From Negativicutes bacterium (GTDB lineage: Bacteria; Bacillota; JAAYKD01): a DNA stretch of 64,000 bases. Shown here piece after piece: positions 9,745-40,879 of the stretch (position 1 is its first letter; every line of letters begins with the position of its first letter). The DNA lies in assembly GCA_021372785.1 (NCBI GenBank), contig JAJFTT010000071.1, forward strand, positions 1-64,000, written 5' to 3'. The notes beneath the pieces are model-generated. The model saw nothing but the letters and a program-made list of their open reading frames with translations, did not search any database and was not told the DNA's origin. Position numbers and translations under genes: made by a program.

Positions 9745-9841
9745 TGGCGGGAGTATGTGGGAATCGAACCCACCTTGGAACGTATCAGGCCCCAAACTCG
9801 GTTTTGAAGACCGGTAGGCACACCAGAACCTAGCTACTCCC
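9745..9841 (-). tRNA. selC: tRNA-Sec (anticodon TCA)
   Basis: A 97-base tRNA including an encoded CCA. The acceptor arms GGGAGTA/TACTCCC pair, the T-arm is GTGGG-TTCGAAT-CCCAC, and the anticodon stem-loop GGT-CTTCAAA-ACC gives anticodon TCA (9805-9807), which reads UGA. The very long variable arm and extended D-arm are the hallmarks of selenocysteine tRNA. It lies directly downstream of selA-selB on the same strand, which fits its role as the adaptor that SelA charges and SelB delivers. Confidence 0.96.
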
Positions 9842-9936
9842 AAGCAAAGATTATAGCAAATAGCAGCCGGGGATGCAAGTCGTATTTTAAATTTTACGCT
9901 ATGTTTTGCCTACAGAGAAAGATTCGCTTCAATTTT

Positions 9937-11847
9937 TCAGCTCTTTTTTCTTAAAATCCTTTTCTCTCCCTGACGCTGTGTGATTTTGGCGGTATCAAAA
10001 TACTCCAGCAAAGCCAAGGCATACTTCCTGCTGGTTGCCAGCAGATCACGGTATTCCGCCAAGCTGATTTCCGTATGTTCCCGAAAGAAGTCAAACAGCA
10101 GCTGCTCCGCCTGATCGAAATGATCTTTGTTGTAAAAAATCTCCTCCGTCAGACGCAGCAGCGAACCTTCTTCCTGCATCAGTTCCAGGATCGCGGGTAA
10201 ATCTTTGCGTTTGGCATATTGCGTCAGCAGATCGCTTTTGGCAGGCGGCTCAAATCCGGCAGTCCGGAATTTCTCACTGATCTCCCGGTAGAGGGATGTC
10301 TGTTCCGCCGTTAGTTGGACTTTAAAATCATAAGCGGCTACCGTATTGCCGGTGATTTTGATCCGCTCATCGCTCAGCCAAATCAGCAGCAAAGCGGCGA
10401 ATATTTTATTGCTGGTTTGCTTCAGCAGGCGGCTGTGCAGTTCTTCTTTTGCCATACCCAGGCGCAGCGGATTTTTGCGGTGAAAACGCTGCAAAATTTC
10501 TTCCGCTTGAATTTCCAGAGCCTGCAGATAGGAGGAAGCAAGCAGAATCTCTTTTTTATCAACCGTTAAGGAAACCGCCTGTTCGCTCTGCAGCAATTGT
10601 TCGATCAGCTCTTCGATCTCACTGATTTCCGGGTGCGCTTTGATAAAATCTTCCCGCAGCGGATAGGAGTCGCTGACCGCTGCCAGCATTTGCAGCAGGC
10701 GGTGCTGCGGCGATCCTTTTTCCATCCGGCGCAGCGCCTCAATCTGCTCTGTCTTAAAGCGTGTTTTCTTGCGCGGATTGGTCTGCAATACCGTGCCGCC
10801 GCCGATGGTAACCATCGGTGAATAAGAGCGCAGCACAAACAAATCGCCTTCGGCGGCGGCAACCGGCTCTTCCAACCGCAGTTGAATCAAAGCGCTTTCT
10901 CCGGGTTCGACGCTTTCCTGTTCCAGAGGAACCACCCGTCCCATCACTTCACTGGCGCCGATGTATAAACGGATTCTGGTTCTGTGCTGCAGGGGACGGG
11001 GAGCGGTGACCAGGATGCGCACCCTGGCGTCCAGCATTAAGGTCGTCTTTAGGGTGTTGACTGCCGCCAGCACATCACCGCGCCGTACGTCTGTCACATC
11101 CACGCCCGCCAAATTAACCGCCACACGCTGGCCGGCAAAGGCCTTCTCTACTTTTTCGCCATGCACCTGCAGGGCACGCACACGGACTTCGGTTTTACCC
11201 GGCATGATCTCCAATTTATCGCTGAGCGCTAAAACTCCGGTCAGCAGGGTTCCTGTCACCACCGTGCCAAAACCGGGAATGGTGAAGACGCGGTCAATGG
11301 GCAGCCGCGCCGCGGCATGGCTGTCTTTTGCTTCCACTTCTTCGGTCAGGCGATCAATCTCGGCTGTCAGTGCCGGCAATCCTTGCCCGGTCAGACTGGA
11401 AACCGCAATAATCGGCGCATCCGCCAGAAACGTATCGGCCAGTTCTTCCCTGACCTGCTCGGTGACCAGCTCCAGCCAATCTTGCTCCACCAGGTCCGCT
11501 TTGGTTAGAGCCACGATGCCACGCTTGACTTGTAGGAGCGACACGATATTTAAATGTTCTCTGGTCTGCGGCATGACTCCCTCATCCGCCGCGATGACCA
11601 GGATGACAATATCGATCCCGCCGACCCCGGCCAGCATATTTTTAATAAAGCGTTCATGACAGGGTACGTCGATCAGACCCGACCGTCTGCCGCTCGGCAA
11701 ATCAAAGTAAGCAAAACCGTTCTCAATGGAAATACCGCGCTGCTTTTCTTCTTTTAAACGATCGGTATCGATCTGCGTCAACGCCCGGATCAAAGCGGTC
11801 TTGCCATGGTCGACATGACCAGCCGTACCAATAATAATATGTTTCAT
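9937..11847 (-). CDS. selB: Selenocysteine-specific elongation factor SelB
   Basis: A GTPase that brings Sec-tRNA to the ribosome at UGA codons followed by a SECIS hairpin. In 636 residues, the G domain has [14 protein letters not shown] (P-loop), [12 protein letters not shown] (the G3 region, where EF-Tu has DCPGH) and TKADL. EF-Tu-like domains II and III follow ([16 protein letters not shown]). From about residue 370 the rest is a string of winged-helix domains that bind SECIS RNA, ending near residue 636. The ATG at 11847 has AGGAG upstream and lies eight bases after selA, so selA-selB are co-transcribed, with selC next. Confidence 0.97.
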
Positions 11848-11855
11848 CGTTTCTC

Positions 11856-13280
11856 CTAAAGGATTGTTTGATCGATCATCTGCACCACGCCGTCCGCCAC
11901 CCGCGTCAGTTCATCGTCCTGGATGGTGCGCAGATCCAGCAAATACTGGTCTTTGGCAATCCGCCCAAAGATCGGCGTCTCAAAACCGCGCAGTGCCGCT
12001 TCCAATTGCACCACACTGCAATCGCGCGGTACAATCGCCAGCACATAAGTTGGTAATTGTACCAAAGGCATGGACCCGCCGCCCACCTCAGAAACATCTT
12101 CCTGCACACGGACAAACGCTTTGCCGCCTACCCGCATGGTGATATCCAGCCAGAGCCGATCTGCTTTCTTATGCAATTCCTCTTTACGAATCGTCAGCAT
12201 GCGCAGGACCGGAATTTCGCTCAGCGCCTTTTTTTCGTCCAAATACAATTTTAAAGTGGCTTCCAATCCCGCCAGGGTCATTTTGTCAATGCGCAGCGCC
12301 CGATTGAGCGGATGCTTTTTCATCAGCGCAATATATTCTTTCTTACCCAAAATAATACCAGCCTGCGGACCGCCCAGCAGTTTATCGCCGCTGATCGTCA
12401 CCACATCAATCCCCGCCTGCAGAGAACTCTGTACCGTTGGTTCCGTTAAGCCATAGGCGGACAGGTCGAGCAAAATACCGCTGCCCAGATCTTCCACAAT
12501 CGGTAAAGCGTGCGCGTGCCCCAATTGCACCAGATCGGCGTTGCTCACTTCCCCGGTAAAGCCAACAATCCGGTAATTGGAGGTATGCGCTTTCAGCAAA
12601 AGAGCGGTTTGGGGGCCAATGGCTTTTTCGTAATCCTGCAGATGCGTTTTGTTGGTAGCGCCAACTTCAACCAGACGGCAGCCGCTTTGCTGCATCACTT
12701 CGGGGATACGGAAAGAACCGCCGATTTCAATCAATTGTCCGCGGGAAACGACAACTTCCTTGCCGCAGCCCATCGCAGCCAGAACCAGCAGTACGGCGGC
12801 GGCATTGTTATTGACAACCATCGCATCTTCGGCGCCGCTGATTTGACAGAGTAATTGATTGACATGATCATACCGCGAGCCGCGCATGCCTGTTTTTTCA
12901 TCGATCTCCAGGTTGGAATAACGGCTGGCTACCTCCAAGACTTGTTTGCAGGCGTTTTTTGGTAAAAGAGCCCGGCCCAGATTGGTGTGCAGAATGATTC
13001 CGGTGGCATTGATCACACCATGCAGACTGGGCTGCATTTTTTGTTTTGTCATGATTTTTACCCGCTGCAGGATTTCCTGTCGGTCCGGCATCTCTTCCGG
13101 GAACCAATCGGTTGGCTGCGATAAAATTTCACGGCGAAATAAAGCTAAGACCTGACGAATGGAATCCGTCACCGCCTGATGAGAATATTCTTCTATTAAA
13201 GCTTGTATGGACGGTGTTCTTAACAACAATTCCACTTGCGGAATTTGAGACAATACTTCCTGTTTCGATTTTAAACCCAT
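11856..13280 (-). CDS. selA: L-seryl-tRNA(Sec) selenium transferase SelA
   Basis: A PLP enzyme that converts seryl-tRNA(Sec) to selenocysteinyl-tRNA(Sec) using selenophosphate from SelD. The open frame extends up to 13436, but the family starts near LKSKQEVLSQIPQVE. The ATG at 13280 is preceded by AAGGATG at good distance and gives 474 residues, the usual SelA length; another ATG at 13289 is less well placed. The N-terminal tRNA-binding domain is followed by the aspartate aminotransferase fold with HTNLGRALL, VNNNAAAVLL and the PLP lysine in SGDKLLGGPQAG. It forms a selA-selB-selC unit directly downstream of the glycine reductase operon. Confidence 0.95.
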   Translation of the reverse strand: MGLKSKQEVLSQIPQVELLLRTPSIQALIEEYSHQAVTDSIRQVLALFRREILSQPTDWFPEEMPDRQEILQRVKIMTKQKMQPSLHGVINATGIILHTNLGRALLPKNACKQVLEVASRYSNLEIDEKTGMRGSRYDHVNQLLCQISGAEDAMVVNNNAAAVLLVLAAMGCGKEVVVSRGQLIEIGGSFRIPEVMQQSGCRLVEVGATNKTHLQDYEKAIGPQTALLLKAHTSNYRIVGFTGEVSNADLVQLGHAHALPIVEDLGSGILLDLSAYGLTEPTVQSSLQAGIDVVTISGDKLLGGPQAGIILGKKEYIALMKKHPLNRALRIDKMTLAGLEATLKLYLDEKKALSEIPVLRMLTIRKEELHKKADRLWLDITMRVGGKAFVRVQEDVSEVGGGSMPLVQLPTYVLAIVPRDCSVVQLEAALRGFETPIFGRIAKDQYLLDLRTIQDDELTRVADGVVQMIDQTIL

Positions 13281-13444
13281 TGCACTCATCCTTACTGTTC
13301 TATTCTCTAGCAAAATGGTTTGACTCTGTTTGATCAATTTCTCTGTCCGGCGGCGGTTTCCCTGCTGTTTTTCTGAAATCAGCGCAAGGAAGCCGATTTT
13401 GGCGGTCAGAAATCCGTAAGCAGGTATTTTTTTCATGATAACGA

Positions 13445-13509
13445 GAAAATTCCCCCCTGGTCTGACCTGAATCTCCCTGTTTCAAGCCGGCCCAGGAGGG
13501 AATTTTTTA
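13445..13509 (-). terminator. Hairpin between grdD and selA
   Basis: Minus strand: AAAAATTCCCTCCTGG pairs with CCAGGGGGGAATTTT across a loop of about 33 bases. It lies about 25 bases after the grdD stop and may end or attenuate the grd transcript before selA. The U-run is short, so read-through into selA is possible. Confidence 0.55.
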
Positions 13510-13532
13510 TCTTTTCGGATCAGAACTACCTT

Positions 13533-14693
13533 TTAGCAATAACCTGCTCTTTTCAGTTCCTCCATGGCTTTTTCCTGATCCTCTTCTGCCACCAGAATCA
13601 CAGGGCCAACGCAGCCCATCCCGGTTTCGGCGTAAAACCCAGTCTTCCAGAGCACATGCGTGGCATCCTCCAATTCCATCACGTCAATACCGGTGATCTC
13701 TTCGGTAACCACCTTCCTGGCAGGTGCTTTCACTTTTTCTACTACTGCTTCCGCAGCCGCCGCTTTTTTTGTTTCTTCAAACAAGCCGGCTAGACCAGCC
13801 TTATTGACAGCATCAAATTCCGCTTTGGCAACCTGCCAGATCTTGCCGCCGGCCAATTGACCGGCATATTTGATCGCATTCGCCACCACCGGAGAACCTG
13901 AGGCACGCGAGAGGATTAAAACGGTACGTTTATAATTTTCTCCGATGCCGGGCCCGTAACCATAACCTGCCGCTTCATAATCGCCGCCGGTTTGGAAGGA
14001 TGAGAACATCTTCATCAGCAGGTTGCCGGTCAGCGTATCGGTAATCATCACATCCGGAGTCGCCATCAGCAAATCATTGCCGCGCATGATGACACCGCCG
14101 TCGGCTCTGGCTGATTCGACCCATTGGAAAGAATAACCTTGCTCTGCCAGCTTATTGAGGGCGCGCTCCACCTGACGGGAACCGTCCACATTCAGGATAC
14201 CGAGGGTTGGCTGAGCGATCCCCATGGTTTTAGCGGCAATGATACCATAGATCGCATTGCGAACCATCGCTTCCACCCGCTCGGTAGCGGAAGTGCCGGT
14301 CGTGGTGGCAAGAAACATTTCTTTGCCGCGTCCCGGTGTCACTACCTTGCCGACCGTAGAGACACCGATCGGGAAACTGTAATGCATGGTAACACAGGCA
14401 TCGATGCTGCCGGCATCCAGCAGTTCTTCCATTTTTTTGTGCTGCGCCTGGAAATCCGCAGCGGGGAAAGTCGGAAGACCGCTGTTGTTCTGCGGTCCGA
14501 TCAGACAGACCTCTAAATCCGGATTTTGTTTTTGCGCTAAGACTGCGCCGCGGATAATCTCTTCCGGACCATGCTCGCTACCCGAAACAGTAACGGCAAC
14601 TTTTGCTTTATGCCCAAATTGACCGGTTTCCAGGGCCTCGGCTAAATCCAAGAAAACCTCTCCGATCATGGCTTTGATGTTTTGTTCAGCCAA
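13533..14693 (-). CDS. grdD: Glycine reductase complex protein C, beta subunit GrdD
   Basis: With GrdC, it converts the acetyl (carboxymethyl-seleno derived) thioester on protein C to acetyl phosphate. GrdD is related to PlsX phosphate acyltransferases. The C-terminal stretch around ETGMGCVGPVILV carries the conserved cysteine thought to hold the acetyl group. I choose the TTG at 14693: GGAGG lies eight bases upstream and the protein is then 386 residues, the family length. An upstream ATG at 14708 would place that ribosome binding site inside the gene. A lysine/alanine-rich linker (about residues 290-315) precedes the C-terminal cysteine region. It is the last gene of the grd operon. Confidence 0.93.
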   Translation of the reverse strand: MAEQNIKAMIGEVFLDLAEALETGQFGHKAKVAVTVSGSEHGPEEIIRGAVLAQKQNPDLEVCLIGPQNNSGLPTFPAADFQAQHKKMEELLDAGSIDACVTMHYSFPIGVSTVGKVVTPGRGKEMFLATTTGTSATERVEAMVRNAIYGIIAAKTMGIAQPTLGILNVDGSRQVERALNKLAEQGYSFQWVESARADGGVIMRGNDLLMATPDVMITDTLTGNLLMKMFSSFQTGGDYEAAGYGYGPGIGENYKRTVLILSRASGSPVVANAIKYAGQLAGGKIWQVAKAEFDAVNKAGLAGLFEETKKAAAAEAVVEKVKAPARKVVTEEITGIDVMELEDATHVLWKTGFYAETGMGCVGPVILVAEEDQEKAMEELKRAGYC

Positions 14694-14724
14694 AATTTCC
14701 ACCTCCATAATCAAAGCATTGGGG

Positions 14725-16266
14725 TTATTTTGTCAAACTTTTGGCAAAATCACGCATTGCTTCGGCGATCATACCGCGAACTTCCTCTTTATTGATCCCT
14801 TTTTCCGATTCTACTTTACCATCGTTCACTTCAATTACAAAGGAAACACCATCGAACAGATTGGTCAGGCGCGCCAGGAACAGAGAGCCTTTGCCAATGA
14901 TCATCGTATTCTTCAATTCCCCGGCTAACATGGCGTCACGGGCATGACCGATATAAGGTACACCGGAAGGAATATGACCTTGCGTGGGTGCAAAACCAGG
15001 CATTCCATGCGTCTCGCCAAAAGTAGCGACTTCTGTTCTATCCAGCATTTTTTTCATGACAGCCAGGGCGGCAATCATTTTATAATTGGCTGTCGGAACA
15101 TCTCCGGCTCCGGCCGGAACGGTAATTTCCGGATTTTGCAGTTCCGCAGCATAACGTTCGATATCAGTAATCGTCATTCCGGCACGCAGCAAAGGATCCA
15201 GAACCAAAGCCTGCATGACAGCCTGAGGAGCAGAACCGGAACCGATCAGATGGCGGCCGACAATATCGGTCCGGATCACCGGGTTGATACCATCATTTTC
15301 ACCAATATGGAAAGCAAAAGCACCTAAGCAGTCTTCCAATAATGGCATATCTTTTTTGACATGATCGCGGCCGTTCATACCGAGTTTAGCGGTGCAGCCG
15401 CCGGCTACGACCACAACATTTTTATAGATACCCGCTTTGACCAGAGCGGAAGCGGTGATCAGAGAATGTGCCGGTCCGGCGCAGAAACCGCGCATATCGA
15501 CTCCTGTTGCGTTGACGGCCCCCACCATTTCACCGATGGATTTGGCAAAATTACCGCCGCCGCGCTGATTCATATCGCCGCAGGCTTCTTCGGAACACTC
15601 GATAATATAATCGACTTCTTCAGCCTTCAGAGCGGATTTCGCCAACAGGTCTTTAAAAACCAAAGTCGCGGAAGCTTTGGCAATATAGTTCTCCGCCATA
15701 ACATGAGCCGTTAAGGAAGCGTCGTATTCATGAGCCCGTTTGACACAACCGACCAGGCGGCTGCCCAGACAGAGGGGTTCGGCATGCATCGTATTGATTT
15801 GTTCTTCCACTTCTGCCATGCTGTAGCTTTTACCCAGCCGTTTCAAATCGTTGGCGTTTATTAAGGGATGCTCCGCCAGTTTTTCACTGACTTCGGCCAT
15901 AAAACTGGTTTCCAACATGACCAGGTCAAAGGAGTCTACGATTTTTATCATACCGAGGAATTCGGCTTCCGGCATGATTCCGCCGTATTTACCGTCGCGG
16001 CTGGCGTTCGCCAGCAAATTTTCTTTTTGCCACATCGGTTTGGCAACCGTATTCAAAAATTCCGGATGCAGGTTGCCGATGTAAACCTGGTTGGGAGCGT
16101 AAGCCACGCATTCTTCATAAGAACGCAGATGCTGCGGAATTTGCTGTAAATACTCAGAATTCGGATTGGCACGGCGTTCACTGGTCTGCGTAGTACCCAT
16201 ACCGAACAGCAGGGACGGCGTGTGGATCAAGGAATAAGCATTCCCTTTCATCACTGGAAAAGACAT
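14725..16266 (-). CDS. grdC: Glycine reductase complex protein C, alpha subunit GrdC
   Basis: Partner of GrdD in protein C; the fold resembles beta-ketoacyl-ACP synthase III. The 513-residue protein starts MSFPVMKGNAYSLIHTP and has VDYIIECSEEACGDMNQRGGGN, VNATGVDMRGFCAGPAHSLITAS and a GKGSLFLARLTNLFDGVSFVIE ending, all characteristic of GrdC. The frame is open up to 16383, but the ATG at 16266 follows GGAGGTG, which fits the family length. A 130-base structured gap separates it from grdB upstream, unlike the tighter spacing elsewhere in the operon. Confidence 0.95.
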   Translation of the reverse strand: MSFPVMKGNAYSLIHTPSLLFGMGTTQTSERRANPNSEYLQQIPQHLRSYEECVAYAPNQVYIGNLHPEFLNTVAKPMWQKENLLANASRDGKYGGIMPEAEFLGMIKIVDSFDLVMLETSFMAEVSEKLAEHPLINANDLKRLGKSYSMAEVEEQINTMHAEPLCLGSRLVGCVKRAHEYDASLTAHVMAENYIAKASATLVFKDLLAKSALKAEEVDYIIECSEEACGDMNQRGGGNFAKSIGEMVGAVNATGVDMRGFCAGPAHSLITASALVKAGIYKNVVVVAGGCTAKLGMNGRDHVKKDMPLLEDCLGAFAFHIGENDGINPVIRTDIVGRHLIGSGSAPQAVMQALVLDPLLRAGMTITDIERYAAELQNPEITVPAGAGDVPTANYKMIAALAVMKKMLDRTEVATFGETHGMPGFAPTQGHIPSGVPYIGHARDAMLAGELKNTMIIGKGSLFLARLTNLFDGVSFVIEVNDGKVESEKGINKEEVRGMIAEAMRDFAKSLTK

Positions 16267-16396
16267 TTTGAAGACACCTCCAACAATTAATCTTAAGGTA
16301 CGATACGAAAGCCCCAAGCCTTCCGCATACTCAATGAGGGTAACGACAGGAGCCGTGAAACTCCTTGCCAGGCTTGGGACCATCGCTTAGCAGCTA
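16267..16396 (-). other. Structured gap between grdB and grdC
   Basis: Minus strand: GTCCCAAGCC pairs with GGCTTGGGGC about 60 bases later, and inside the loop GGAG pairs with CTCC. No U-run follows, so it is not a clear terminator. It may stabilise or process the mRNA between the protein B and protein C genes. The grdC frame stays open through it, but no start signal is seen there. Confidence 0.45.
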
Positions 16397-17707
16397 CTAT
16401 TTCTCAAATACGGTCTGTTCGTGAACTTCAGTTTGCAGAGCTTGCAACGCTCTTTCTACCAGACCGCGGCGGAGATGTTTCTCATCTTCCGGGGTCAGAT
16501 TCGGATTGCCCAGCGGATGAGGAATAGCTACTGTAGGAACAATACGGTTTGCACCGACTGTTAAGGAGATCGGAACCACTGTGCACATATGAACCACCGG
16601 AATACCGGTACGTTCGATTTCTTTTACCATCGTTGCGCCGCAACGTGTGCAGGTGCCTCAGGTACTGGTGAGGATGACGGCATTGACACCGGCCGCAATC
16701 AACTCTTCTCCGATCGCATGGGCATATTTTTTGGCATTGGCCACCGATGTGCCGTTGCCGACTGTGGCGTAATAGTAACGATAGAGCTTACCGATTTTGC
16801 CTTCGGCTTCCAGGTCGCGCAGTACGTCCACAGGAAGGACGCGATCCGGGTCCTGGTTGGCATAGACGGGATCGTAGCCGCCGTGCGCAGTCTGATAGGT
16901 TGCGTCTGTCAGACCATTCACGCCCTCCAGATCGTATTTGCCATACTTGGAAGCGGAAGAAGATTCGATATGATCCGGATTGCCTTTGGGAACGATGCCG
17001 CCGGAGGTGACAAGAGCAATCGTTGCTTTCGACATATCCAGGATTTGAGGACTGGGTTCTACCCGATCGAATACGGGCATCGGATACTCGGTTGTATAGG
17101 CTTGTCCGCTGATCTTTTTAACCAGCATATCAACAGCGCGTTTGGAACCGCGTTCAGCGGCAAAATAATTGCGGCGAACACCACGGGCGATATAACCTTC
17201 TTCTTTGGGATCGCCCAGTTCAACGCCATCAATCAGCTTATAGGCAAAATTCACCATTGCCGGCAATGCTTTACGCATACCGACAGCGGAATTGGCAGTT
17301 TCCACGATATAGGTATATTTCCGGTAGCTGTCAACACCGGGGCTTTCAATATACATACCGGTCACGGTAGGAATATTGAATTTCTCGCTCACGGCTTTGC
17401 AAATTGCACCGCAGGCCATACCGTACCGTCCGGCATTGAAAGCAGGACCGGCAATTAAGATGTCAGGATTGAATTTTTCGATCATTCCCAGGATGACAGC
17501 CGTAGCCTCATCCATGTTCTCGTTGAAATAGTTATCGCCACAGATGACTGTTGCGACAATCTCACCACGCTCTTGCATCAGGTTTTGGATCTGCATGCCG
17601 GGTCCTACAAAACCTTCTTGCAAAATCGGTGCAATATCAGCCTTGTCCTCACCGCCGATTTGGCCGTAGAACTGGTTAATATAGTGGACCACACGGATCT
17701 TCTTCAT
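16397..17707 (-). CDS. grdB: Glycine reductase complex protein B, selenoprotein subunit GrdB
   Basis: Substrate-binding selenoprotein of glycine reductase: with GrdE it activates glycine and passes a carboxymethyl group to GrdA. The gene is read through an in-frame UGA at 16658-16660. Joining the two open frames gives 436 residues with selenocysteine at position 350, the known length and position for GrdB, in the motif STUGTCTRC (UxxCxxC). The start is the ATG at 17707 behind GGAGGG. A SECIS-like hairpin follows the UGA. Gene finders will split or truncate this gene. Confidence 0.96.
16631..16645 (-). promoter_or_regulatory. SECIS-like hairpin in grdB
   Basis: Minus strand: CGTTGC-GGC-GCAACG, a perfect six-pair stem with a three-base loop holding guanines. 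It starts 12 bases after the UGA, placing the loop about 19 bases downstream, which is within the range expected for bacterial SECIS elements bound by SelB. Confidence 0.7.
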
Positions 17708-17747
17708 AGTGTTCCCTCCTACAATTGGAAGTTTCATCGCCTAAGAC

Positions 17748-18212
17748 TTAGTATTTTGAATATTGTTTGCGAATGGTGCTTACTTCGTTCTTAATTGCTT
17801 CCACATCCAACACCATTTCCATCATGCCAATTTGTTCTTCGTAAACAGCGGCATCACATTCTGATTTGATTTCATCTTCGATTACATGATAAACAGCGAG
17901 TCCCAACGGGACCCCCGCCAAAGGACCTGCAAAGGTCGGATCTCCAGCAGAAACGGTTTCAGCAGCCAAGCCAGCGGCTTCGGCTTCAGCACCGCCAAGA
18001 ATTACAATTAAATTCTCAGCACCGAGTTCTTCTGCAGCTTTTTTAATCCGAGCTTGATTTTCCAGATCCATGGCACCGGCAGCCGTTCAGACGAAGCATT
18101 CCGTGGTCGAAAAAACCACTTCCGCGCCGGCCGTAGCTAAAACTGCTTCAATAGCACCACCGGGAATCCCATCACGATCACCAAGGATCGCAACTTTTTT
18201 ACCCTTTAACAC
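17748..18212 (-). CDS. grdA: Glycine reductase complex selenoprotein A, GrdA
   Basis: Small redox selenoprotein that accepts the carboxymethyl group from protein B as a selenoether and hands an acetyl group to protein C; it is then re-reduced by thioredoxin. An in-frame UGA at 18087-18089 lies in [15 protein letters not shown], giving a CxxU redox motif with selenocysteine at residue 42. The frame extends to 18299, but GGAAGGAG at 18222-18229 points to the GTG at 18212, so the protein begins (M)[17 protein letters not shown] and is 154 residues, matching the family. The C-terminal half has [22 protein letters not shown], which is diagnostic for GrdA. Confidence 0.95.
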
Positions 18213-18313
18213 GAGCGCCAACTCCTTCCATCCTGATTTCATTTTTAAAACCTGTAAATTTCTCCTGACACGGTAATTAACGGGATCGATTGCTTTCAAA
18301 TCAGGCTGACTTG

Positions 18314-19600
18314 CTAGATTTGTTTTGCAGTTAACGTGAAATATCCCACTTCGTTGGTCGCACCGGTAATTACCTGGATCTCAGCTTCGATGGAACCGTC
18401 TTTTCTCAAAGAACCGTTCCAGCCGCCGGCAATCATATCGGCAACTTCCACATGTCCAATCACTTTGGCCATCGGCGGCAATAAAATGACTTCATTCGCA
18501 TTGCCGGCAGTGACGCAGGCATTGGCCAGGACGTTCGCATCCGCTAAAGACTGAGAAGCACCATCGCGTCCGGCATATTCGTCGGTAACGAGAACGGTTT
18601 TCACACCTTTTTTCTCCAATTTGACGCAATTCATCATCAAGTCGGCATCGGGGTTGCCAAAGCCTTCTTCTGAGATGATGGCAGCATCGGCACCCAGCAT
18701 CTCCACCAGTTTGGCCGTGAAATTAGAGGAACGTTCTTTGTCAGCCAAAGTTACATTTTCATTGGTAATGACAACGCCAATGAAGTTGTAGTCTTTGCCA
18801 TGACGTTCCAATAAATCGGTGATGACCGGGCTGTTTTCATGTACAATGGTAGGATTCTTGTCGCAGGCAGACACGCAGTTGCCGCTGACAATCGCACCAT
18901 CAAACACTTCGGTGGGAGAGATTAAGGTGGGGAGAATCCGTTTCGCATCGACGCCGTAAACATAGGTATCATGGAGCAAACCTTGGGTTTGCAGCATGTA
19001 GACATAGACAACCTTCGGCAAATCGGCGTATTTTTCAGCGGATTGGAAGATCGGCAGATGCTCGTAGACTTTTTCTTCGTCGACTTTGGCAGTGCGGCCG
19101 GCTTCCGCCAAATAAGCGGCAGCTTTGAATCCGATCAAACGGACGGAAGCTTCATGATCGTGCTGTAATACGCCAGGTTTCGGTTCGGCAATGACAACCA
19201 CATTATGCAATTTGGAGAACGGTGTATAGTCAGAGCCGGGACCGGTCATATCGATAATACCTTCCTGGAAACCAACGATTTTACCGGTGGTGACAACGGC
19301 CATACCCTGCAATACATGAGTGCGGCCCTCGCCAACCATATCAACCTTACCAAGCATACCCGGGAAAACATTACCGGGACCTTTTACTTTTACGCGGGGT
19401 TCAATGACGTCTTTCACCGGAATAATACGGACAGACTCGCCCGGATGGACGATATCAACATCAACTGAAGCAATGCGTTCATCGCCTGCCACAGCTTCCA
19501 GTAATGCCGCTTTATTGATTGTAAGCGTGCCATTGCTGATCTTCGTTTCTTCACCGAATTTTACGTCTGTAATATGAATATAACCCAGTTCCAACCGCAT
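18314..19600 (-). CDS. grdE: Glycine reductase complex protein B, proprotein GrdE
   Basis: Proprotein that self-cleaves into two subunits of protein B, leaving a pyruvoyl group that binds the amino group of glycine. The ATG at 19600 follows AGGAGGTG and gives 428 residues; with this start the Asn-Cys cleavage site in [13 protein letters not shown] puts the cysteine at position 242, the position known from Eubacterium acidaminophilum. The N-terminal domain ([17 protein letters not shown]) and the C-terminal half ([27 protein letters not shown]) both match GrdE. It is the first complex gene after the thioredoxin pair. Confidence 0.95.
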
Positions 19601-19652
19601 TAGGTTCACCTCCTGATATCCTTCGCCTTTTCTGGCGAGGGTATAACAACCA

Positions 19653-19967
19653 TTAGAATTTTGCTAATTCCGCTTTGATATTCTCTTCCGTTGCATCGTC
19701 TTTGGTCAGTTCGTTCAATTTTTCGCCATTTTTATAAAATTGAATGGTGGGCAGCCCCAGAACCTTCTCTTTGATGCAAAGGCGGCGGTTTTCTAAAGCA
19801 TTGACTTTACAGAACTTTACTTTGCCTTCCCATTCTTCTGCCAATTGTTCTACAGAAGGAAGAAGCGCCATGCAGGGATCACATTTGGGAGACCAAAAAT
19901 CCACCAAAACAGCTCCCGGAAATTCGCGGACTTCCGCATCAAAAGTCTCTTTTGTTAGTGCAACCAT
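19653..19967 (-). CDS. trxA: Thioredoxin of the glycine reductase system
   Basis: A 104-residue thioredoxin that likely passes electrons from the reductase encoded next door to selenoprotein A. The fold is complete (VDFWSPKCDPC, LPTIQFYKNGEKL). The active site is CDPC (C29, C32), preceded by lysine, instead of the standard WCGPC; atypical sites are known in thioredoxins of glycine reductase operons. The start has AAAGGAGGTG at ideal distance. It sits between trxB and grdE. Confidence 0.92.
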   Translation of the reverse strand: MVALTKETFDAEVREFPGAVLVDFWSPKCDPCMALLPSVEQLAEEWEGKVKFCKVNALENRRLCIKEKVLGLPTIQFYKNGEKLNELTKDDATEENIKAELAKF

Positions 19968-20048
19968 CTATTTCACCTCCTTTACAGTGATCGGAAACCC
20001 TCTATAAGCGACCATCGAATCCAAGCATTCGACGAACACTCGCAGCAT

Positions 20049-21272
20049 TTAGAGCGCCAATTCGGCGATTTTTACCGCCAGCGCCGCTTCATCAATCGTT
20101 TCGTCAAAACGCGCTACGATTTTAGCTTCTTTATATAACAGGATCACCGGAATATCCTTTATCTCACATTTGCGGGAAATGCGGATATTGCGGTAAGTAT
20201 CAATCTTCACCAATTTGAGCTTGCCTTTGTAAGGCGCCATCATGGCTTCCAGGCGGGTATTCAGATCAATGGTAGAAGGTTTGGTAGGATTCCAGAAAGA
20301 CACCACCACGGGGATCTTCTCGTCGAGAACCGTTTCCCGGAAGCCTTCTTCTTCATGGATGAATTTCTCAGCGGCAGTGGCGGCAATGGCGCCGTCAGCG
20401 GCAGCCGTAACCACTTGGCGCAGGAATTTTTGTCTGGCATCGCCAACGGCATAAATCCCGTCGACATTGGTTTCACACATTTCATTGGCAATAATGTAGC
20501 CGCGTTTGTCCATAGCCACAATATCTTTCAGCCAATCGGTTTGCGGTATCATACCGACAAAGAAGAAAACGCCATTGGTTGCTAATTCCGAGATCGCGCC
20601 GGTCTTGATATTCTTCAATTCTACGGTATCGACTAAGCCGTCACCTTTGATGGCGTTGACGGTAGAGTTCCAGACCCATTTCATTTTGGGATTATGGAAA
20701 GCACGTTCTTTTAAGACGGGAGTGCAGTCCAGCGTCCCTTCGTCATGCAGGACAATGACGGTGACGCTCTCGGCAAACTTCGTTAAGTACATCCCCTCTT
20801 CGATCGCCTGATCACCGGAACCGACCACCACAACATCCAATTCCGTAAAGAAATCGGCATCGCAGGTAGCGCAGTAGGAAACGCCTTTGCCTCTGAATTC
20901 CCGTTCGCCCGGGACGCCCAGTTCACGCGGCACAGCGCCAACCGAGAGGATCACGACTTTGGCTTCAAAGGTATTTTCTTTGCCTTTCACGATCTTATAA
21001 TCACCGGCGTCGACAATATCAATGACCTCATCTTTGACAAATTCAGCTTCGAATTTCTTGGCGTGCTCGACCCAAACCTTCATTCCTTCCTGACCGCTTA
21101 TATGAGGTACACCGGGATAATTCTCCCAGTCTTCAGTCGTCGCAATCTGACCGCCCGGCCGACTCTTTTCAATCACTACCGTAGAAATTTTGGAACGGGC
21201 ACCATAGATTGCAGCGGCTAAACCACCGGGGCCACCGCCGACGATCGCGAGATCAAACTTATAATGAGCCAT
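20049..21272 (-). CDS. trxB: Thioredoxin reductase fused to a cysteine-less thioredoxin-like domain
   Basis: Residues 1-305 are an NADPH-linked thioredoxin reductase: GGGPGGLAAAIYG (FAD), CATC active site (C134, C137), GSGDQAIEEG (NADPH) and GIYAVGDAR. Residues about 318-407 add a thioredoxin fold (IPVVVSFWNP...KLVKIDTYRN...IPVILLYKEAK). Where thioredoxin has WCGPC this domain has NPTKPS, so it cannot do dithiol chemistry. It may dock the partner thioredoxin or protein A. The usual family length is near 310, so the extra domain is real. It is the second gene of the riboswitch-controlled operon. Confidence 0.93.
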   Translation of the reverse strand: MAHYKFDLAIVGGGPGGLAAAIYGARSKISTVVIEKSRPGGQIATTEDWENYPGVPHISGQEGMKVWVEHAKKFEAEFVKDEVIDIVDAGDYKIVKGKENTFEAKVVILSVGAVPRELGVPGEREFRGKGVSYCATCDADFFTELDVVVVGSGDQAIEEGMYLTKFAESVTVIVLHDEGTLDCTPVLKERAFHNPKMKWVWNSTVNAIKGDGLVDTVELKNIKTGAISELATNGVFFFVGMIPQTDWLKDIVAMDKRGYIIANEMCETNVDGIYAVGDARQKFLRQVVTAAADGAIAATAAEKFIHEEEGFRETVLDEKIPVVVSFWNPTKPSTIDLNTRLEAMMAPYKGKLKLVKIDTYRNIRISRKCEIKDIPVILLYKEAKIVARFDETIDEAALAVKIAELAL

Positions 21273-21306
21273 GATAAACTCCTCCTTTGAACCTTCTCAG
21301 TAAAAT

Positions 21307-21684
21307 CTAAAAATGTGACAAACTTTGCAGCCCGCTCATCAGCAAAGAATGATCAATCATTGCATAATCTGCTTTGATTGCTTCACTGCGCGGCCGCAAA
21401 GGTCTATCCATGAGTAATTTGGCTGCCGTAGCCATGCTGCTTTCAATAATCTGTAAAGAAAATTCGTCTACCTGCGCCAGGGGTTTCGGTTCTAAAATCA
21501 CCGATTTATAGGGTGTCTGATTCGGTTTCACACTGCCGGTCAGCGGATGTGAAATTAGGACATAGCCGGCATGGACCAAATCACGTACCCGCGTCAGGAT
21601 TTCCAATAAAGTCTCGTCATAATAAACAGCTCCCTCAATCGGGGCAACCTGAGGATTGTTGGTAATGATCAGTACTTTTTTCAT
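21307..21684 (-). CDS. grdX: GrdX family protein
   Basis: First gene of the glycine reductase operon. GrdX is a small protein of unknown function found almost only with grd genes. The frame runs to 21774, into the riboswitch, but the ATG at 21684 follows TTAGGAG and gives 125 residues starting MKKVLIITNNPQV, the GrdX signature. It has no transmembrane segment or cysteine pair. Its place immediately after the riboswitch terminator makes it the first gene to respond to glycine. Confidence 0.88.
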   Translation of the reverse strand: MKKVLIITNNPQVAPIEGAVYYDETLLEILTRVRDLVHAGYVLISHPLTGSVKPNQTPYKSVILEPKPLAQVDEFSLQIIESSMATAAKLLMDRPLRPRSEAIKADYAMIDHSLLMSGLQSLSHF

Positions 21685-21695
21685 ATTGTCTCCTA

Positions 21696-21743
21696 AGCAA
21701 AAAAAAACAGAGAATAAAGGGAATAAACGCCCTATTTCTCTGT
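21696..21743 (-). terminator. Riboswitch-controlled terminator
   Basis: Minus strand: ACAGAGAAATAGGG pairs with CCCTTTATTCTCTGT and is followed by a run of nine or more U, immediately upstream of the grdX ribosome binding site. Its 5' arm overlaps the 3' strand of the second glycine aptamer's closing stem (CAGAG, 21738-21742), so the two structures exclude each other. Confidence 0.88.
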
Positions 21744-21920
21744 CCTTGTAACCTGAGAGATTTATTCTGTCCAAAAAGGACAGAGTTTACTCCATCGGTG
21801 TTCTGGGAACTTTCCAGAGTGCTGTCAATCATCGGTCCTTTTACCTGAAAGTTTTCGTCGTTTTAGCAAAACGGACGTTGCTCCTTCGGTGGCATTGCGA
21901 TCTGCTCTCTCCCGATTATC
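21737..21920 (-). ncRNA. Tandem glycine riboswitch
   Basis: Two glycine aptamers in a row on the minus strand. Aptamer 1 (about 21830-21920) has GGGAGAGAGC, ACCGAAGGAGCAA and TTTCAGGTAAAAGGACCGATG. Aptamer 2 (about 21737-21826) has CTCTGGAAAG, ACACCGATGGAGTAA and TCTCTCAGGTTACAAGGACAGAG. The closing stem of aptamer 2 (CTCTG with CAGAG) uses bases needed for the terminator, so glycine binding should favour read-through: an ON switch for grdX-trxB-trxA-grdEABCD. Confidence 0.95.
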
Positions 21921-22075
21921 TCATTCAGCCATATTAATTTTTACTATTGAAAAAAAAAGAGAATTCCTCCGTGCTTCTATTTATATTCTTGATACGAAAA
22001 GGAAGCACCTCCCTTGCATTCTGTCTGTTTTCGATTTTTTAACAATACTTATAGTAAGAGCTTCGTTTGCAGCAG

Positions 22076-22795
22076 TTACAGCGCGGCGCGGTCGACCAAA
22101 CTCACCTCATTTTCAGCCGGCAGCTTAATCGCACCGAAATGCAACGCCGGATTTCCGTCTGTAGAATGATCCAGATAGCTGGTCCGCGGCGTCAGATGAA
22201 TTTGAGCAGAACCGCTTTGTCGGATGAATTCCTCAACATTAGACAGGTTTAAGCCACCGCCGGGCAGAATTTCAATGCGTCCCGCCGCCTTCTGTTCTAA
22301 GCGGCGAATCAGCTCGACGGCCTCAACAACGCAAGGTTTTTGACCGCTGGTCAGAATTCGGCTGAAACCAAGCTGAATTAACTGTTCCAGTGCCTGCAGC
22401 GGCTGCGGGGTGAAATCAAAGGCCCGGTGAAACACCGCCTGCTTCGAACCGATCAGGTCCAGTATTGTGCGGCAGCGTTGGCTGTCGATTTCACCGTTCG
22501 CCTGCAAGACAGCAAAAACCAAACCATCGGCACCGGCCTGCAGCAAAGCTTTGGCATCCCAACACATCGTTTCGAATTCGTTTTCGGAATAACACATTCC
22601 GCCGCCGCGCGGACGCAGCATAGCCATGACGGATAACGAGGTCGCGGATTTGATTTGCCGGAGAGAGCCGATACTGGGCGTTAAACCACCCAAGGCCAGA
22701 GCGCTGTTCAATTCGATGCGTTTAATACCGGCAGCAGCCGAAGCAAACGCATCCTCGGCAGTGGCGCAGCAGGTTTCAATCAGGATTTGTTTCAT
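22076..22795 (-). CDS. cutC: CutC family protein
   Basis: A 239-residue TIM-barrel protein of the CutC family, linked in the literature to copper homeostasis, although the biochemical role is unsettled. Recognisable stretches are IETCCATAEDAFASAAAGIKRIELNSAL near the start, MLRPRGGGMCYSENEFETM, AVFHRAFDF and ILTSGQKP, then LPGGGLNLSNVEEF. The ATG at 22795 follows GGAAAGGATGCAGGAG. It is downstream of selD on the same strand (32-base gap) and is probably co-transcribed with it. Confidence 0.92.
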   Translation of the reverse strand: MKQILIETCCATAEDAFASAAAGIKRIELNSALALGGLTPSIGSLRQIKSATSLSVMAMLRPRGGGMCYSENEFETMCWDAKALLQAGADGLVFAVLQANGEIDSQRCRTILDLIGSKQAVFHRAFDFTPQPLQALEQLIQLGFSRILTSGQKPCVVEAVELIRRLEQKAAGRIEILPGGGLNLSNVEEFIRQSGSAQIHLTPRTSYLDHSTDGNPALHFGAIKLPAENEVSLVDRAAL

Positions 22796-22827
22796 GCTCC
22801 TGCATCCTTTCCGGTTCCTTGCTGCCG

Positions 22828-23922
22828 TTAGACAATGTGGATTTTGCCGCCATTGCCCAGCACCCGGCCGACATTCGCGTAAAATACGCCGGCAGCCTGA
22901 TACCGTTTCTGCAATTCAGCGGCAGCCTGTTTTGGCAAAGACAACAGCAATCCGCCGGAAGTCTGCGGATCAACTAAAATATCCTGCAGCCACAGCGGAA
23001 CGCTCGGCTCCATATCGACCCGCCCGGCGACATGCTCCCGGTTGCGGTAGGCGCCGGCCGGAATCATCCCCATCTCCGCCATTCCCCGGGCGCCGCTCAT
23101 GACGGGAATTTTTGAACTGTCGATCAGCAGGTTTTTACCGCTGCCCTGCGCCATCTCGCCAAGGTGACCTAAAAATCCAAAGCCGGTGATATCCGTCGCC
23201 GCCGAAAGCGGCAAATCGTAAGCCAATTCCGCCGCCTGCCGGTTGAGCAGCCGCATCCAGTCAATTGTCACTCTTAAAACTTCAGGAGTCAGCAAATCGA
23301 CTTTAGCAGCCGTATTTAAGATACCGCTGCCCAAAGGTTTGGTCAGCAATAAAACATCACCTTCCTGCGCACCTTGATTGGTCCAGATTTTTTTAGGGTG
23401 AACCAACCCGGTCACAGAGAGTCCGTATTTCGGTTCGTTGTCCTGCACAGAGTGGCCGCCAACCGTTGAGGCGCCGGCTTCCGTCACCTTATCGGCACCG
23501 CCGCGCAAAATTTCCCCTAGGATCTCCGCGGGAAGCTGATTGGGGAAACAAACAATATTCAGCGCTAAAATCGGTTTGCCACCCATGGCATAAATGTCGG
23601 ACAGGGCATTGGCTGCCGCAATCTGGCCAAACAGATAGGGATCATCCACGACCGGAGTAAAAAAGTCGAGGGTTTGGATAACAGCCAACTCATCGGTCAA
23701 ACGATAGACGGCGGCATCATCCGAGGTTTTTATGCCAACCAGTAAATTCGGATCGGTAGGTGTGGGTAAACAGCGCAAAACTTGCGCCAGGATCGTCGGA
23801 TCCAATTTTGCCGCTCAGCCGGCGGCATTGGTCATTGCAGTCAGCCGAACCGGTCTTTCCGGTTGGATCGCCTGATCGATCGGGCCAAGAAATTTGATCG
23901 GTGTTGTAAATTCCTGTTTCAT
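22828..23922 (-). CDS. selD: Selenide, water dikinase SelD (itself a selenoprotein)
   Basis: Makes selenophosphate from selenide and ATP, the selenium donor for SelA. The longest open frame begins at MDPTILAQVLR, but this lacks the N-terminal active-site segment. Reading upstream through a UGA at 23815-23817 gives MKQEFTTPIKFLGP...MTNAAGUAAKLDPT, with start ATG at 23922 behind AAGGTGG; the protein is then 364 residues with selenocysteine at position 36, where other SelDs have Cys or Sec before the catalytic lysine. Further motifs are TSDDAAVYRL, NALSDIYAMGGKP and TDITGFGFLGHL. A promoter and a SECIS-like hairpin are present. Confidence 0.96.
23790..23803 (-). promoter_or_regulatory. SECIS-like hairpin in selD
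   Basis: Minus strand: GGATC-CGAC-GATCC, five pairs with a four-base loop that has a guanine in second place. The loop begins about 17 bases after the UGA, in the expected range for SelB binding. Confidence 0.65.
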
Positions 23923-40739: not shown

Positions 40740-40872
40740 TCTTCTGCCATCCATACATAGAAAAAGCGCGGGTAAATCACCCGCGCAGAAAATCCCCTCA
40801 TAATGATGAGAAATCCATATTTACCCGGTCTGGTTAACCGCCGGGTGAGAAGCGGATGGCCTCTTCTTGATG
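40740..40872 (-). ncRNA. L20-type leader of infC-rpmI-rplT
   Basis: Minus strand: CACCCGGCGGTTAACCAGACCGGGT is followed about 45 bases later by GCGCGGGTGATTTACCCGCGC and a run of T (terminator, about 40760-40782). This arrangement resembles the Firmicute L20 leader, where L20 binding promotes termination. Assignment rests on position and general layout, not on a covariance search. Confidence 0.75.
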
Positions 40873-40879
40873 CTTATAA

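Follow-up and report, generated by a model that had tools for sequence, protein, structure and literature searches.

A tandem glycine riboswitch, assigned on family homology that also predicts glycine binding, precedes grdX at the head of a glycine reductase operon in the window (the whole 64-kb stretch of DNA that was analyzed). Very probably it is an ON switch that acts on transcription of the grdX-trxBA-grdEABCD operon by glycine-dependent antitermination, a direction of control that we infer. The strand CAGAG closes the second aptamer and also forms the 5′ arm of the terminator in front of grdX, and the P1 stem and the terminator are mutually exclusive through it. The fermentation substrate would in this way turn on its own selenium-dependent reductase.

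Tandem aptamers upstream of grdX

The riboswitch and the genes around it are encoded on the minus strand. An earlier note on this DNA, made from the letters alone, had claimed a tandem glycine riboswitch at this place, and a search with the family model RF00504 bore this out. As the search showed, two adjacent aptamers exceed the gathering cut-off of 32 bits: aptamer 1 at 21823 to 21924 (62.4 bits, E 1.2e-12) and aptamer 2, whose model match covers 21730 to 21827 (44 bits, E 8.4e-8) and which runs from P1 to P1 over 21738-21819. Aptamer 1 was also recovered in a scan of the whole 64-kb window, and no further RF00504 match (E <= 0.001) was found in the 2.1-Mb assembly beyond these two aptamers of the grdX leader. 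Weak matches to the U12, MIR8008, and Clostridiales-2 models in the model scan were dismissed as chance-level.

The RF03166 model (glycine-GGAnGA), which describes the whole tandem, aligned end to end at about 21736-21928 (−) with 76 bits, but this is below its gathering threshold of 110 bits, which the grdX-linked relatives L040 and L044 pass. In the MFE fold, a leader strand GCUG (21926 to 21929) pairs with a linker strand CAGC (21821 to 21824), and pairing of leader and linker is also present in the RF03166 alignment. We read this as a P0/kink-turn-type helix characteristic of tandem glycine riboswitches, with a predicted kink-turn geometry. Since the leader strand of this helix (21929-21926) belongs to the element, the riboswitch starts about 9 nt upstream of the span proposed before (21696-21920); the riboswitch is indeed present there, and only the 5′ limit was set too short.

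One strand shared by P1 and the terminator

The switching strand CAGAG (21742-21738) has two alternative partners, namely, CUCUG at 21819-21815, the 5′ strand of aptamer 2 P1, and CUCUG at 21712-21708 in the terminator. Both pairings are exact, and the second is followed by a tract of nine U residues (21699 to 21707), so the proposal in the earlier note that this strand is common to the closing stem and the terminator holds. The intrinsic terminator hairpin (21707 to 21743 [−], −13.8 kcal/mol) consists of an extended outer stem, in which ACAGAGAA (21743-21736) pairs with UUCUCUGU (21714-21707), and an inner AGGG/CCCU stem. Downstream of the U tract lies the grdX Shine-Dalgarno sequence AGGAG (21690 to 21694), with the grdX start at 21684.

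To express how often such an overlap arises by chance, dinucleotide shuffles were used as the null in place of permuting the six P1 nucleotides, which carries no information, since the U-rich arm will pair with any strand rich in purines. Among 100,000 shuffles of the 52-nt leader tail, 105 (about 0.1%) gave an exact CUCUG with U4 or more behind it, and 3,331 (3.3%) qualified when G-U pairs were allowed. Moreover, the pattern CAGAG-N(5-35)-CUCUG-U4 is unique to the grdX leader when both strands of the 64-kb window are scanned. A consensus terminator scan missed the real grdX terminator and flagged a segment of aptamer 2 instead (21796-21779), and the best match in a consensus promoter search reached only 7 of 12 positions, none being convincing.

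The arrangement was then compared among the best 30 GrdX loci from a set of 399 genomes in the phylum; a glycine riboswitch that reaches the gathering threshold lies upstream in 25 of the 30. In 18 of 36 grdX-linked leaders, all five P1 nucleotides can pair with the arm before the U tract, versus 3.2 expected from shuffles, and with Watson-Crick pairs only this holds for 9 of the 36 versus 0.10 expected, where the leaders are phylogenetically non-independent and one of those labeled as grdX linked (L096) sits 1.9 kb from grdX. Other glycine riboswitches behaved similarly (8 of 19 versus 1.5 expected). Among the leaders listed with a CAGGG strand, the terminator arm co-varies in several, reading CCCUG in L021 and L064; in L026, the arm is UCCUG and the P1 5′ strand is CCCUG. 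In Carboxydothermus islandicus (L074), the full arrangement stands before grdX, and nearly every grdX-linked leader has a hairpin with a U tract behind it. Not all relatives share the exact overlap: L034, from the same order, has a terminator without the CAGAG overlap, and L034, L039, L041 to L043, and L054 share a few bases or none, so that exclusion in these leaders must be shallower or reached by another route.

Other layouts were seen in this sample. In L039, L041, L042, L043, and L056, a gene for a ComFB-domain protein (Pfam PF10719, 73.6 bits for the L039 copy) lies between the riboswitch and grdX as the first gene after the riboswitch; our literature search did not find ComFB mentioned together with glycine reductase. 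Upstream of grdX in L048, aptamer 1 is followed by CUCUG...CAGAG without a second aptamer body and then by a strong terminator using that CAGAG. It seems to be a singlet in which a remnant P1 persists, resembling the published "ghost aptamer" singlets.

Computed folding of the growing leader gave the terminator as the ligand-free default. The probability of P1 was about 0.5 while the 3′ end of the transcript lay at 21738-21730, before the inner terminator stem, and it dropped as soon as the inner terminator segment formed; the pairing probability of the terminator exceeded 0.99 from 21708 on and 0.999 once the U tract was made. When the ACAGAG strand was taken away from the isolated terminator, a weak hairpin of −4.0 kcal/mol was left. 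With the transcript extended to the U tract, folds in which P1 was forced lay about 11 kcal/mol above the terminator fold, in energies that exclude tertiary and ligand contributions, and read-through must therefore be kinetic. Since the computed energies omit glycine and tertiary contacts, they describe nothing beyond the default state, and its reversal by glycine is an expectation drawn from the riboswitch family.

The events in the leader can be proposed as follows. By homology, RNA polymerase makes the two aptamers with the kink-turn linker between them, and bound glycine would stabilize the aptamer 2 P1, which would then keep CAGAG. Deprived of its outer stem, the terminator would be reduced to the weak hairpin that the energies predict, and transcription would probably proceed into grdX. 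Without glycine, the 3′ arm of the terminator would displace P1, as in the computed default fold, and transcription would end in the U tract, short of the ribosome binding site.

A further complement to the switching strand is present in this leader. The 5′ arm of P3b, CUCUGUCCUU (21776 to 21785), is exactly complementary to AAGGACAGAG (21747-21738), and the resulting 10-nt helix has a predicted occupancy of 0.2 to 0.35 before the terminator forms. Among the 55 leaders compared, this is the only one with more than 5 nt of such a complement, which rules out the helix as a conserved antiterminator. It is unlikely that the P3b arm acts as a species-specific third competitor for AAGGACAGAG that tunes basal read-through or response kinetics; if it does, three partners, not two, compete for the switching strand. 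Because the P3b helix also hides the terminator arm, its effect would at most be a higher basal read-through or a slower response.

Known systems and the direction of control

The closest likeness is the grd operon of Clostridioides difficile (grdX-trxB-trxA-grd), for which an upstream glycine riboswitch has been catalogued and an ON switch suggested (PMC11477304, PMC10880999). Organism and sequence differ, and the two are likened by operon and riboswitch, not by the terminator base by base. The gcvT riboswitch of Bacillus subtilis, a proven ON switch (PMC5666159), likewise has two aptamers, a leader-linker kink-turn, and a downstream transcription terminator, but the genes under its control are those of the oxidative glycine cleavage system, whereas the pathway here is reductive. 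Since the C. difficile riboswitch and the gcvT mechanism are already published, the arrangement described here is not new, and the grdX leader is a clear but ordinary example of a known one. It is a legible case of substrate-induced Stickland-type fermentation, and the recurrence of the P1/terminator overlap, with variation, in many grdX leaders speaks for an ON switch in grd operons generally.

The opposite direction, with glycine promoting termination as in riboswitches before glycine transporters, has a precedent in the OFF switches that precede AGCS transporters (review PMC11477304). We regard it as extremely improbable here: a ligand-stabilized P1 itself takes away the 5′ arm of the terminator, the downstream genes consume glycine, and the C. 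difficile operon is glycine induced (PMC11477304, PMC10880999). The pairing of P3b with AAGGACAGAG, the sole alternative that resembles an antiterminator, hides CAGAG as well and for that reason could not give glycine-dependent termination unless P1 fails to form. A mainly translational control, in which the ribosome binding site is sequestered by pairing and the terminator is incidental, is likewise very improbable. In the full-length fold, the AGGAG region pairs weakly with CUCUCAGG, a segment of aptamer 2, which would fit such control, but the stem that has P1 as its 5′ arm and the nine-U tract both come before the Shine-Dalgarno sequence is transcribed, and the hairpin with its U tract is nearly constant among grdX-linked leaders.

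Another reading is that the riboswitch is partly degenerate, with an aptamer 2 that no longer binds glycine and a leader that is a one-site switch or partly constitutive. Aptamer 2 reads CCGAUGG where most others read CCGAAGG, and this change could alter its affinity; CCGAAGG was present in 49 of 50 first-aptamer matches (some loci counted twice), while second aptamers were more variable. The lower score of aptamer 2 and the P3b helix unique to this species point the same way. However, the leader of a sister genus (L033) has the same CCGAUGG, so the variant has persisted, and many tandem pairs have one lower-scoring aptamer, which makes degeneration improbable. The reading preferred here remains an ON switch working through the terminator.

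The glycine reductase operon and its genome context

The genes under this leader are identified as a glycine reductase set by their matches to protein family models, namely, GrdX, GrdA, GrdB (glycine equivalog), GrdC, and GrdD. The first gene, grdX (21307 to 21684 [−]), matches NCBIfam GrdX (NF038093) with 114.6 bits against a cut-off of 40, and trxB, trxA, grdE, grdA, grdB, grdC, and grdD follow at 13533 to 21272 (−). Both grdA and grdB contain an in-frame UGA, and grdB contains a SECIS, with a SECIS_4 element at 16620-16657. When the UGA was read as a residue, GrdB scored 728 bits versus 602 for the glycine-reductase equivalog cut-off, and GrdA scored 259 bits versus 130. For grdE, the closest model was GrdG (597 bits, under its cut-off of 780), and the name grdE is taken from operon position.

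The genome also encodes gcvT, on another contig (G000:C21:6985-8061), yet the sole glycine riboswitch detected, that of the grd leader, guards the reductive, energy-yielding operon. Genes of the selenium machinery are clustered around the grd operon (9749-23840 [−] of the window), with selD upstream and selA, selB, and tRNA-Sec downstream. SelD is seemingly a selenoprotein itself, having an in-frame UGA in NAAG*AAK. A ribosomal protein L20 leader at 40754-40874 (−) is barely over its cut-off (58.9 versus 58.7 bits). Finally, TrxB (407 amino acids, 20049-21272 [−]) carries a C-terminal thioredoxin-like domain at about residues 308 to 403, beside the separate trxA.
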